DNA of 64,000 bases from Monosiga brevicollis MX1 (lineage: Eukaryota > Opisthokonta > Choanoflagellata > Craspedida > Salpingoecidae): assembly GCF_000002865.3 (NCBI RefSeq), contig NW_001865072.1, positions 210,655 through 274,654 of the forward strand. Direction: 5' to 3'. The translations under genes and the position numbers were made by a program. This document shows positions 40,327-45,412 of this stretch, one piece after another. Every line of letters begins with the position of its first letter. The first letter of the stretch is position 1. Under the pieces are notes generated by a model. It made no database searches, was not told where the DNA came from, and saw nothing but the letters and a program-made list of their open reading frames with translations.

Positions 40327-41589
40327 TTAATTGGAGGGCCGCACGAGACTGTGGAACTCGGCTTCCGAGATGCGCTTGGCCAAGCTAAAGGCGGGGGGTG
40401 CTGCATACGAGGGCGGGCTGTTGGCTGGCGCTTGGCTGGTTGCAGTCGAATGCTGATCAAAGGCGGTGGCGGTGGATGAGGTGGTAGACGAAGCTGGGCC
40501 ACGGGCGCCAATGGTGCGATGGGCAGTGCCGTAGGCAGGTGGGGCACTGGCAGCTGCGACATTTTCTGGCTTGGGGGACGGGCGCGTGCTGTAGGGCGGT
40601 TGGTGATGGCCAGGAACGGCAGCCCCGGCACTGGCGTTGTGCGAGCTCAGCGAGAGGTGCGAGGAGGGACCACTGGTGGTCGGCGGGCCGCCATCTTGCT
40701 GAGGATTGAGCTGATACATGTTGATGGCTTCATTGTAGGGCGGGGGGGCGCTGGTACCCGCGGCTCTGCTCGCACTCTGGCTGGTGGGTGGGGGCAGGTG
40801 AGAAGACGGTGGCGGAGGCGCAAATTGGACTTGTGGGTAGAGGTGTTGGGGGTTGGGAGCGCTTGAGGAATTGGGGTCGGGGTGCTGAGAAGCGGCCGAT
40901 CCATTGGTGGGCGCCAAGTGCTGCTGCTGCCCCTCATTGGCGTGGTCCGCCTCCGTATTGGTGCCAGCCTCGTCGTGATCGTGATCGCCATCCACAGAGT
41001 GCTGGGAGACGGATTGCTTGAGCTTTGAACGGGATTTCTTGTTTTTGCTGGTGTCGCGGGTAAACTTCCAATCGGGGTAGAGGCGGCGGTGCTCCTCGGC
41101 CATTTCCTTGGCCTTGTCCACGTAGACCTGCTTCTGTGAATCGGGGAGAGAGGCCCAACGCTGTCCCAGGAGCTTTGAAACGGACTTGTTGTCGAGGTCT
41201 GGATGTTGTTGTTGGATGAGCTTGCGCTGTTCCTTACCAAAGATCATGAAACTATTCATGGGGCGGGGGATGCGCTTTTTCTTGCGGCTCGAGATTTTCA
41301 TCATCTCCTCGGCCTCGGAGAGGCGCATGGGTGGTGGGGGCGGAGGCATGGTGGTGCGGCCAAAGGTGGGCGGCGATGCCACGGGTCGGCCCATGTACAC
41401 GGGACGACCTCCGGGGCCATGCACGTACATCGGAGCATAGCCGGCGGAGGGCATGGGAAAGTATCGATCAGAGGCATAGTAGGGATGGTGTAGCGGTTGT
41501 GCCTGCGATATTTGCGGTGCCTGCTGTTGTGTTGAAGGGCCGTGCTGTCCGGCAGAAAGGTTTGCCGGCGGGTAGCGCGTTGCCATCAT
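40327..41589 (-). CDS. SOX/TCF-like HMG-box protein with PPxY motifs
   Basis: A probable sequence-specific DNA-bending transcription factor, encoded by one uninterrupted exon of 420 residues from tandem ATG codons at 41589 and 41586. The HMG box (about residues 105-185) starts RIPRPMNSFMIFGKEQRKLI, continues SVSKLLGQRWASLPDSQKQ and ends HRRLYPDWKF. The RPMNxFM start and YPD(Y/W)K end are SOX-type, although the usual Trp after FMV is Phe here. The N-terminus is rich in Pro, Tyr and Gly. The C-terminal 230 residues are disordered, Pro/Ser/Gln-rich, with three PPxY motifs (PPPY, PPAY, PPSY) that WW domains can bind. The reading frame stays open upstream to 41829, but that part is hydrophobic and low-complexity and was left out. 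Confidence 0.9.
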   Translation of the reverse strand: MMATRYPPANLSAGQHGPSTQQQAPQISQAQPLHHPYYASDRYFPMPSAGYAPMYVHGPGGRPVYMGRPVASPPTFGRTTMPPPPPPMRLSEAEEMMKISSRKKKRIPRPMNSFMIFGKEQRKLIQQQHPDLDNKSVSKLLGQRWASLPDSQKQVYVDKAKEMAEEHRRLYPDWKFTRDTSKNKKSRSKLKQSVSQHSVDGDHDHDEAGTNTEADHANEGQQQHLAPTNGSAASQHPDPNSSSAPNPQHLYPQVQFAPPPPSSHLPPPTSQSASRAAGTSAPPPYNEAINMYQLNPQQDGGPPTTSGPSSHLSLSSHNASAGAAVPGHHQPPYSTRPSPKPENVAAASAPPAYGTAHRTIGARGPASSTTSSTATAFDQHSTATSQAPANSPPSYAAPPAFSLAKRISEAEFHSLVRPSN

Positions 41590-42653
41590 GGTCGGCGGCG
41601 TAGGCGTCGAGCAACCGCCACAGAACGCGGAGAAAAAGGAAGGAGAGAAAAAGGGAGGAGGAGGGAGAAAAGGCAGGAGAAGAAAGGAAACCAAGTATAA
41701 ATGTAAAACCAAGCAGCCTCTGCCTGCTTGCCTGCCGACGCAATAGCGCAGAGCCAGGCGAACACCGAGGACGACCAGGACCAGAGACGGTCCCAAAAAA
41801 AATAAAAAAAAAAGCAGAGCGACTGACACGAACGTTCTTGCGCCACAAACGCAGAGACACTGGTGGATCAGAGAGACGGTTTCAGAGATGAAGCGGTTGA
41901 ATCGAAAAAAAAGAAGGAGAAGGTGAGTGTAGAGAGAGGGAAGGAGAGAGAGAAAGAGAGAAAGAGAGAGAGAGAGAGGTGTTAGAGAGGCATAGGGGAG
42001 GCGTGTGTTTGTTGTTGACCATGTCTCGTCAATTCATCCGATGACGATGACGGAGGTTAGGCTTGCAGCACCAACAGCCGGGTCTCTATGACCCAGCGTC
42101 TGGCAGCGTCGTTACCTCAGCTCTGGGCACAGTCGACCGCCATGCCCTTGGTCAAGACCCAAGCAGCAACAACAACAGGAACGAGGGAAGACGCGCGCTG
42201 CCAAAACGAACAAATCCCGTTGCAGCCAAGGTCTTACGTTTGGTAATCAGCCCACCACCAAATCTCTCCCTCTCCCTCTTGCCGCTCGAGCGCATCACGA
42301 CACACGTAACCCCGTCGAGGGCGGGGCACCCCTTCAAAGTATATCAGCGTTCCAACATAACGAGTACCTCTCTAATGTTAATATCTGACATTATGTCCTT
42401 TACGTCACTCTCTTTTGCTGATGATGTTTTCGGGCACACACACAAACCTTGATGGATTGAGATCATCAAAATCACTCCTCTCCGCGCCTCCCCCTCTCCC
42501 CTCTCCCTCTCCCCTCTTCCCTCTTCCCACTCCTCCCCGCTTCCCTCTCCTCCCTCTCCCTCTGACCGCTTCCCTCTCCCTCTCCTCTCTCCTCCCCTAA
42601 CCCTCTCCTCGCCTTCTTCCTTTAATCTCCTCGAGTGGTGGAGCTGCTGTGCC
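41590..42653. promoter_or_regulatory. Head-to-head interval of HMG-box and L-domain genes
   Basis: This 1.06 kb interval carries GA-rich tracts at about 41637-41690 and 41936-41980. A CCCTCT-type pyrimidine tract spans about 42478-42610, directly before the plus-strand start. It probably holds both promoters. Confidence 0.6.
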
Positions 42654-45412
42654 ATGCGGTCGCTGCGGTTTGTGAGTGGGCTCGTTGTGGCTGTCCTACT
42701 CTACGCCAGACTCGCCACAACCTGGGCCTCGGAGGATGAACCCATCATTGCAGCCGATATCAACGGCAACCTCATCATCAACAGCTCATCAGTCACCAGC
42801 GCCACCCGCTTGCTGTTCAATGGCGTGGACGTGTTAAACGCACTCACCGAACTTCGCGAAATCTGCTCGGGCTGCTCGCCACAAACGCCGCCATCACCCA
42901 CTCCCGCCCCGAGCACCACGGCCCCCACAGTATCTCCTGAAGCGGTGGTGTATTCAAGCAACGTGGGGTGCAGCCCAAGTGGCGTGCCACCCAACGCGAC
43001 GCACATCCTCGGCCACCTCGATTTGTATTATTGCACAAATCTCACCGCGCAAGACTTGCAGGCCCTGCAAAACATCGTTCACGTGAGCGGCCACGTTCAC
43101 ATCTATGTACGTCACGTGGGGCTGGCGAGCAGAAGAAACAGAAAGGCTGAAGGGCCGGTGCAAAAATTTGCTGCTTCCGCGTCTTTGGCCGGCCAGGCTA
43201 CAACGCCAATTTCTCTCTCCCTCTCCTCTGAGCTCACACTCTGCAATCGACTCTTGCAGCAAAATGACGCATTGACAAATTTGGATGGACTCGGCAACCT
43301 GACGTCCATCGGCGGTTATCTTGAGATACGCATACGTTGGCATGCTAGCACACCACATCATCAACCAATGCTTGCAAAAACGTAGAAAATTTAAGCGTGG
43401 GTGCGGCACGTGTCAACCTGATGATATGCCTGGGTGGAGCTCACGGCTAGTACTGAACACGCAGGACAATGATGCCTTGTTAGATGTGAACGGGTTGGGC
43501 AATTTGAAATCAGTTGGCCGCTATTTAAGCATTTCTGTACGTCCGCTGATTCTCGGCCAAACCGGGCCTCTTGTCTGCGTTGGAAGTGCCCATCTGCCAA
43601 AACGTATAAAACGTCTCATTTCGTTTGAGTGATGCCATGCCTGGACCTCGTAGTACAACGGCTTGCTGGCACATCTGAATGGCTTGGGTAATCTCACATC
43701 AATCGGAACCTATGTTCTAGTGAGCGTAAGTCATTGGTGATTGAAAAACGAGCTCCATATTATTTGCATCAGGTTAAGGCCTTGGATGCTCCGTGGAGTC
43801 GTGTGGGAGCTGTTGCAGAACGAGAGTCATGACCTTTCAAGAATTATGGCTTGGTGAAGTGAGCAAGGGAGAAAAGACCCCTTTCTTGAGTTGAATAGCC
43901 TGCCTTGTCGTTGAAGTTACGGGTGGTGCTCAGCACGGTCAGCCCCTCACCATACCGGTTTCGACCTGTAGGACAACAATGCATTGTCAAACTTGGACGG
44001 GCTGAGCCGTTTGACGGCAATCAATGGCCATTTTCAGGTTGCTGTACGTCCTTGAGCCCTCGTGCAGCCACCCATGACTTTGTCTGTGCGCTCGAGTCAG
44101 GCATTGGGCAGCTCATCCGACGTTGTGTTGGGCAACCATGTCATCATGCGACAAACGGTGCTCTAGAACAATGTTGCGCTTGCTACTCTGAACGGCCTGA
44201 GCAATCTGATATCAGTCGGCGACTTTCTTCAAATCAACGTGAGTCTCGCCTGTCCGCGCTCCCAATACAGGCATGCCCAGGAACCCGAGTCCCGTTAGCA
44301 AAAGAGAACAAATGAGGAAGTGACTTCCAAGGTGGGCATCAGCGACATCACGGCGCTCATTGGCACTTTGATACAATACATTGATTCCGACAGGTCAACG
44401 CAAATCTGGAAAGCGTGCACGGCTTGGCCAACCTCGCAACTGTCGGTGGGGATTTTCTTGTCATTGTACGTCCTGTGGTGTTACCATTCAAGATTGACAG
44501 TGCCTGTTCCCAGCCGTGACCAAATGCCAGGGCAGCTCCCAGCTTTTATGGGCAGATGTATTCCCTCAAAAGGGAGAGAAACATTGGACTGTCAGCATTC
44601 ATTTGCAACGGCCGTCGATTCACTCGGTGTTCAACCGTGATATGCTTGTTTGGCAGAGCAACGGCGCACTGCAAAATGTCAACGGCTTAGACAAGCTTAC
44701 ATTCGTCGGAGGTTCCCTCTTGATCTCTGTACGTGACGCCCGTTGAGCGCTGCCTTGTTTGCGCCTACCATTGCTTTTTACCAGGCGAGGAATCGAGAGA
44801 GGGCTGGAAGGTACTTGTACTACGATGCACGGAGACATGTGGCCCTTGAGAGCACCATGACGCGGGCTATGTCCTTTCACAACGGGTACGGCTTGTTGTC
44901 TGTGCAGGGCAATGTTGGGCTGAAGAATGTGGATGGTCTCGGAAGCTTGTCCTCAATTGGCGGCTATCTTCGAGTCCAGGTGAGTTGCTTTTAGGCGATG
45001 ATTGGCTGCGTCGCTTTGCCAGCACGCTTCATGTGCATCTAACTGTGTTTCTTAACTCCGTAGAGCAATGTTGGCTTGACGAACGTGGACGGACTAAGCC
45101 AGCTGACGATTGTTGGCCCATATATCCGAGTGCAAGTACGGTTGAGCCGTTGAGTCCCACCGACCGCTGATCAAAGACTTGGTCGTCTTTCATGACAGCA
45201 TTTGTGACTTCTCACACGTTTGGGTCTGGCAGGAGAATTCCCATTTAACCAGTCTTGAGGGCTTGTATGGCATAACATCTGTCGGCACCTATGTGCAAAT
45301 CTGTAGCAATTCGCTGCTCAACATCAGTGCGGTCCAGCGCGAGCTAGGAGACTTGGGTGTTCCAGGCCACACCTGCCAGACCTTTACGACTGGCTTCTTT
45401 TGTCCCTGCTGA
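42654..45412 (+). CDS. Secreted L-domain-type repeat protein, one 24-residue repeat per exon
   Basis: Eleven exons: 42654-43106, 43260-43331, 43465-43536, 43654-43725, 43972-44043, 44167-44238, 44394-44465, 44657-44728, 44908-44979, 45064-45135, 45233-45412; 426 residues. Exons 2-10 are each exactly 72 bp, phase 0 at both ends, and each encodes one repeat of the form N-x-x-L-x-x-(L/V)-x-GL-x-x-L-x-x-(I/V)-G-x-x-(L/F/Y)-x-(I/V). Examples are GLGNLTSIGGYLEI and GLGSLSSIGGYLRV. Exon 11 starts with a tenth repeat and ends in a Cys-rich cap (CQTFTTGFFCPC). Exon 1 carries a signal peptide, a Pro/Thr linker and a capping repeat. The pattern resembles the receptor L-domain beta-solenoid of fungal Ecm33/Sps2 proteins. 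No membrane anchor is visible, so the protein is probably secreted. The intron after exon 2 begins AT instead of GT. Confidence 0.92.

Follow-up and report, generated by a model that had tools for sequence, protein, structure and literature searches.

A predicted secreted repeat protein of Monosiga brevicollis with one 72-bp phase-0 exon per repeat, and its paralogous arrays

The window, the whole 64-kb stretch of Monosiga brevicollis DNA that was analysed, carries a gene on the plus strand between positions 42654 and 45412 which, according to the exon model and its translation, has 11 exons, encodes 426 amino acids and has every intron in phase 0. Nine successive 72-bp exons, each encoding one 24-residue repeat, lie between exon 1 and exon 11. 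Intron 1 is 153 bp long and the introns that follow repeat exons measure 84-246 bp, as an earlier sequence-only reading of this DNA had stated. The features are:

42654-43106, plus strand: exon 1, 453 bp
42654-42731, plus strand: putative signal peptide, residues 1-26, from the exon 1 translation, boundary placed by eye
42741-42875, plus strand: N-terminal module ending RLLFNGVDVLNALTELREICSGC, kept in paralogs according to exon 1 matches
42876-42941, plus strand: Pro/Thr/Ser-rich linker, from the translation
42942-43106, plus strand: N-cap at the end of exon 1, first turn of the L-domain-like solenoid (Pfam stretch 116-175, continuing into exon 2)
43260-43331, plus strand: repeat exon 2, 72 bp, then donor ATACGT; exon model and profile scan
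43465-43536, plus strand: repeat exon 3, 72 bp; exon model and profile scan
43654-43725, plus strand: repeat exon 4, 72 bp; exon model and profile scan
43972-44043, plus strand: repeat exon 5, 72 bp; exon model and profile scan
44167-44238, plus strand: repeat exon 6, 72 bp; exon model and profile scan
44394-44465, plus strand: repeat exon 7, 72 bp; exon model and profile scan
44657-44728, plus strand: repeat exon 8, 72 bp; exon model and profile scan
44908-44979, plus strand: repeat exon 9, 72 bp; exon model and profile scan
45064-45135, plus strand: repeat exon 10, 72 bp; exon model and profile scan
45233-45412, plus strand: exon 11, 180 bp, with the last repeat, a cysteine-containing C-cap and the stop codon; from the translation

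An AG precedes all nine repeat exons and a GT follows eight of them. A profile was built from 195 exons at loci other than the window. With an AG required before the exon and a threshold of 14 bits, it recovered precisely the nine repeat exons and the last exon on the plus strand of the 64-kb window. At 14 bits or more, no other match was seen on either strand of the window, and none on the plus strand of 20 windows shuffled in two-base blocks. Because the profile finds only these exons, and none in the shuffled windows, the exon pattern is not a product of chance. The proposal that the gene contains nine 72-bp phase-0 exons with one repeat each is thus upheld by both the gene model and an independent profile. 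The N-terminal module possibly forms a short oligomerising helix. Just upstream of the solenoid gene, and divergent from it, the minus strand at 40330-41829 encodes an HMG-box protein (PF00505, E 1.1e-19). Eight of nine other frames in the window gave no Pfam match and the remaining one gave a C2H2 finger below the cut-off.

The protein had been likened to the receptor L-domain solenoid of fungal wall proteins, with a comparison against the Pfam Recep_L_domain profile suggested as a check. The window protein passed it, matching PF01030 with an E-value of 5.9e-16 and a score of 59 bits, as compared with a curated cut-off of 21.8 bits. Four stretches of the protein match this profile of 112 positions, the best of them covering profile positions 3-62, and 10 of 10 four-repeat segments match it within an E limit of 1, the best at 2.8e-7. 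No other Pfam domain scored above its cut-off in the window protein, and nothing in NCBIfam came near one. The attributes of the EGF/insulin receptor family (furin-like region, membrane span and kinase) were not found: the five Pfam matches up to E=1 include no furin-like or kinase domain, and exon 11 has no strongly hydrophobic stretch (highest 19-residue Kyte-Doolittle mean, 0.92). Matches in the PDB by sequence were weak (best E 0.0097 with the single sequence and 0.0004 with a profile). The predicted model of a bacterial relative, which gives a fold for that relative and not for the window protein, is LRR-like, and its first repeats show a strand at positions 21-24. In this model, residues 20, 22 and 24, together with residues 1 and 3 of the next repeat, would lie on one exposed strand face. 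The likeness to an L-domain solenoid is borne out by the Pfam match, but the bacterial model points to an internalin-type LRR solenoid rather than something particular to fungal wall proteins.

The sequence-only reading had described one gene. Its layout is as described, but the gene is not alone, since at least 23 such arrays are present in the genome. The genome agrees with M. brevicollis in a 54-residue Unc18 stretch that is identical at 54 of 54 residues to UNC18 in PDB entry 2xhe, a protein of this species; of the other Sec1 frames compared, one was closest to Vps45 and one had no match in the PDB. Searched at the protein level, the genome (57 contigs, 39.47 Mb) gave at least 134 matches up to E 10, which include the window's own exons and weak matches; 98 of 153 candidates were scored. 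In 20 fetched regions and the window, 231 repeat-exon starts were found. They make up 23 arrays, each with 3 to 22 repeats and 22 of them additional to the window's, plus two single hits. No array was seen in L038 and L054, which are among the 20 regions. The scan required an AG at a fixed register of the repeat but accepted any length between 60 and 87 bp; repeats cut elsewhere would have escaped it. Of the 231 starts, 18 belong to last exons or to a single hit, for which no donor at 72 is needed, which leaves 213 internal exons. With the start held at the fixed register, 202 of these 213 are 72 bp long and 211 preserve the frame; the other lengths are 69 bp (eight exons), 78 bp (one) and 71 bp (two, both in L041). 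A GT stands at 72 bp in 200 of the 213. One exon in L043 has GC at this position and one, exon 2 of the window gene, has AT; one GT-at-72 match in L056, which lies inside an unbroken 305-residue frame, is probably no exon.

The N-terminal module, centred on NGVDVL, is present in 14 N-termini including that of the window gene, and is mostly followed by a linker. The motif search of 19 loci yielded 15 sequences, the 14 with the true module and a chance frame in L026, and did not find the motif in L019, L027, L034 and L035. A hydrophobic start could be recognized by eye in 12 of the 14. Four other loci (L021, L022, L025 and L031) carry long Thr/Ser-rich, mucin-like stretches, and in them the same 24-residue repeats form short runs without introns. 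Three open frames of 778 residues (C33:44034, C47:1121873 and C23:66978) share the same weak match (28%, query 125-292) and are perhaps recent copies of another repeat protein.

Family clusters, counted as the window and the fetched search clusters with other genome matches left out, lie near contig ends: 10 of 18 are within 25 kb of an end (contigs C10, C11, C17, C25, C27, C36, C37, C40, C47 and C55) and 12 of 18 are within 50 kb. At most 0.072 of positions would be expected within 25 kb (P about 1e-7). For two of the 18 clusters, on C24 and C55, the sequence fetched contained no array. The clustering may be subtelomeric or may be an assembly effect; the arrays themselves could break contigs. 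TTAGGG is the telomere motif used in our search; a DNA search, said to skip simple repeats, returned a single exact (TTAGGG)4 run genome-wide. With this single run, we set aside the term subtelomeric for the clusters.

The nine exons had also been read as a clean case of growth by exon duplication. The window repeats have a mean nucleotide identity of 54% (43% at third codon positions), and the likeness of one window intron to another (identity x coverage) is 0.42, as compared with 0.42 for shuffled introns. The window array is old, too old to show unit duplication. In three paralogous arrays, L041, L040 and L039+, entire exon-intron units are duplicated, with intron likeness of 0.80, 0.84 and 0.69 versus 0.54, 0.57 and 0.52 for shuffled introns. 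In L045, L049 and L051, the exons are alike and the introns barely so (0.53, 0.52 and 0.54 versus 0.46, 0.48 and 0.52). Growth by duplication is therefore seen in the young paralogs, where whole units have been copied, but it is not demonstrable from the window alone. The first repeat exon is common to L040 and L041 (71 of 72 bases), the arrays of which contain 8 and 17 repeat exons, and two L052 genes with arrays of 16 and 8 have their three leading exons in common (96-100%). As near-identical exons thus occur in arrays of unequal length, repeat number differs between close paralogs. The nearest relative of an exon is in the same gene for only 67 of 194 exons. Recombination between homologous exon-intron units is the probable route by which arrays lengthen, shorten and become mixed. 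Symmetric phase-0 units would leave the frame intact when their number changes, as was seen for the window gene (see below).

The five highest entropies among the 24 repeat positions are those of positions 24, 22, 3, 1 and 20, which flank the strand predicted for the bacterial relative. We compared nonsynonymous change at the exposed positions (pN) with synonymous change at all sites (pS) in 8 of the 23 arrays, by counts rather than by a codon-model test. Among the three young arrays the ratios were 1.56, 2.28 and 1.34, and bootstrapping set their lower bounds at 1.02, 1.62 and 1.04. Of these arrays only L039+, with 6 units, is independent, because the set of exposed positions was fixed after L040 and L041 had been seen. 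Four middle-aged arrays gave 0.88-1.03, which is about the synonymous and intron rate, and the window array gave 0.76 (0.66-0.87), with no excess. Because the excess appears only in the young members of the eight arrays, diversifying selection rests on these three. Synonymous change at the exposed codons themselves was above nonsynonymous change in L039+ (0.667) and L040 (0.654). In the nine closest pairs, nonsynonymous codons occurred at 15 of 45 exposed positions versus 13 of 171 elsewhere. The idea of a variable surface, which had been raised for the window gene, stands as an inference from its paralogs, but the window array alone bears no sign of diversifying selection.

In L040 and L041, exon ends diverge by 0.28 and 0.31, introns by 0.13 and the exon middle by 0.09, so that divergence at the ends is over twice that of the adjoining introns. 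Among the nine closest pairs, 21 of 918 intron sites differ, yet silent differences affect 13 of 216 codons, so that exons and the introns beside them seem to have had separate histories. The parts of a unit are nearly uncorrelated, except for the upstream intron and codons 1-4 (rho 0.41). Intron homogenisation or within-unit recombination could inflate the apparent divergence of the exons. Because intron and silent exon differences disagree, we judged the introns unsafe as the sole neutral yardstick, and the claim of selection therefore rests on pN versus exon pS.

What might such proteins do? Their parts would follow the order signal peptide, N-terminal module, Pro/Thr linker, N-cap, variable 24-residue repeats and C-cap, with exposed positions that appear to diversify above the synonymous rate in young arrays. 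Such proteins most likely bind a varying extracellular target, for example bacterial surface molecules or partner cells. The diversity is most likely germline, and alternative splicing could add to it. Judging from sequence comparison, we consider it probable that the window gene belongs, as an old member, to a family of secreted, exon-modular choanoflagellate solenoids that serve as germline-encoded recognition or adhesion proteins for a varying target.

Alternatively, the proteins might be structural solenoids of a wall, theca or matrix, in which repeat number would be neutral, changing through unequal crossing-over, and exposed residues would drift unconstrained. A structural role would suit the 17 of 23 arrays that were followed to the C-cap, where a stop comes soon after and the last exon has no strongly hydrophobic stretch (the other six arrays were not followed to the end); it would also suit the rates of the middle-aged arrays and the lack of excess in the window array. 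It is harder to reconcile with exposed pN that exceeds all-site pS in the young arrays even at the bootstrap lower bounds, and with exon ends in L040 and L041 that outpace the adjoining introns. We think that a purely structural role is rather unlikely.

Intron 2 of the window gene starts with ATACGT, having AT instead of GT, and so differs in its first base from GTACGT, the commonest donor in the family (74 of 200 GT donors). Among the options tried, the full frame was kept by use of the AT donor or by skipping of exon 2, whereas two nearby alternative donors and retention of intron 2 led to early stops. Intron 1 (43107-43259) is open in frame, and its retention would add 51 residues with no stop. 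That symmetric exons would be skippable without loss of frame, as had been suggested, agrees with our computation, in which any single one of exons 2-10 could be removed in frame (nine single skips). The AT may possibly be an assembly error. One could also envision that the window gene is decaying, and that the AT donor and the two 71-bp exons of L041 are signs of copies turning into pseudogenes; the early stops would fit this scenario. However, all eleven window exons are free of stops and frameshifts, repeat identity is 51, 69 and 43% at codon positions 1, 2 and 3, with the second above the third, and the whole frame survives the skipping of exon 2. Decay therefore appears improbable. The two L041 exons, at 2603 and 2998 in an array of 17, are either real frameshifts that would need skipping or assembly errors. 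The AT donor of the window gene is a case already at hand in nature in which to see whether symmetric exons can buffer the mutation of a splice site.

The notion that introns were inserted in parallel at one repeat position of an intronless repeat protein, to which the intronless relatives with the same repeats in this genome and in bacteria and the lack of detectable common sequence among the window introns could be fitted, was set aside as very improbable because young arrays copy exon and intron together (intron likeness 0.69-0.84 versus 0.52-0.57 for shuffled introns), and about 200 exons have one cut position and phase, although the scan required that start position.

Among 16 bacterial loci found, two Recep_L-type loci (L065 and L066) are closest, with 24-residue repeats 49% and 52% identical to those of the family, as compared with 27-39% for the other bacterial loci. 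Unlike the one-exon-per-repeat family, they are unbroken frames; L066 resembles it in having capping ends as well. Two bacterial genes that lie next to each other in L066 (853-2196 and 2228-3256) encode the same repeats, signal-like starts that contain cysteine, and linkers rich in Asp and Thr.

In lamprey variable lymphocyte receptors, which are assembled somatically, an LRR module has about 24 residues and the variable positions lie on the face of the strand. The modules and variable positions are similar here, but the diversity is most likely germline. Like the window's family, glycoprotein-hormone receptors and LGRs have one LRR per exon in a uniform phase; this is phase 2, however, and they are membrane receptors.

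A closely similar exon layout is that of the brown-algal LRR-ROCO candidate immune receptors, for which PMC11378527, which cites Zambounis et al. 2012, describes one 72-bp phase 2 exon per LRR in tandem arrays, exon shuffling, alternative splicing and positively selected sites on the concave face. The choanoflagellate arrays share the tandem 72-bp exons. In the algal genes, however, a 23-residue LRR is encoded by bases 3-71 and is joined to a ROC-COR GTPase, whereas the window gene is in phase 0 throughout and its protein is predicted to be secreted, of Recep_L type and without ROC-COR among its Pfam matches. A sign of strand-face selection, as in the algal receptors, appears by counts in the three young paralogs and not in the window array or the four middle-aged ones. 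Tetrahymena (PMC6564038) has arrays of 90-bp phase 2 LRR exons with extreme intron phase bias, variable array length and recombination between paralogs, and its youngest LRR genes cluster near centromeres and chromosome ends. These uniform-exon arrays of variable length resemble ours; they differ in exon length and phase (72 bp and phase 0 in M. brevicollis) and in number, most species there having more than a thousand LRR genes, as compared with at least 23 arrays here. For M. brevicollis, PMC2939053 reports LRR-kinase receptors and no Toll-like receptors. The sequence-only reading knew of no animal or choanoflagellate counterpart. None for choanoflagellates appeared among the literature matches listed (including PMC4894438 and PMC2939053), in a search that most subscription journals and all preprints lie outside; on the other hand, a similar layout occurs in brown algae, and PMC11378527 draws attention to animal gonadotropin receptors and their exons as well. 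Going by these sources, the exon logic is known from brown algae and ciliates, and the repeat type, phase, protein context and lineage differ here.

One genome thus holds an age series, from arrays in which exon and intron are alike, through those in which mainly the exon is, to those in which likeness is confined to the protein, which shows how arrays form and age. We suggest, tentatively, that the sister group of animals may possess a germline, exon-modular secreted repertoire for recognition, in which recombination makes use of the likeness between introns, the exon ends encoding the binding face change fastest, strains differ in array content and in-frame skipping of exons yields further variants of one gene. 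The choanoflagellate case would mean that a secreted recognition family which diversifies rapidly stands beside the root of animals, and would suggest that the trick of one exon per repeat has been invented repeatedly and independently.
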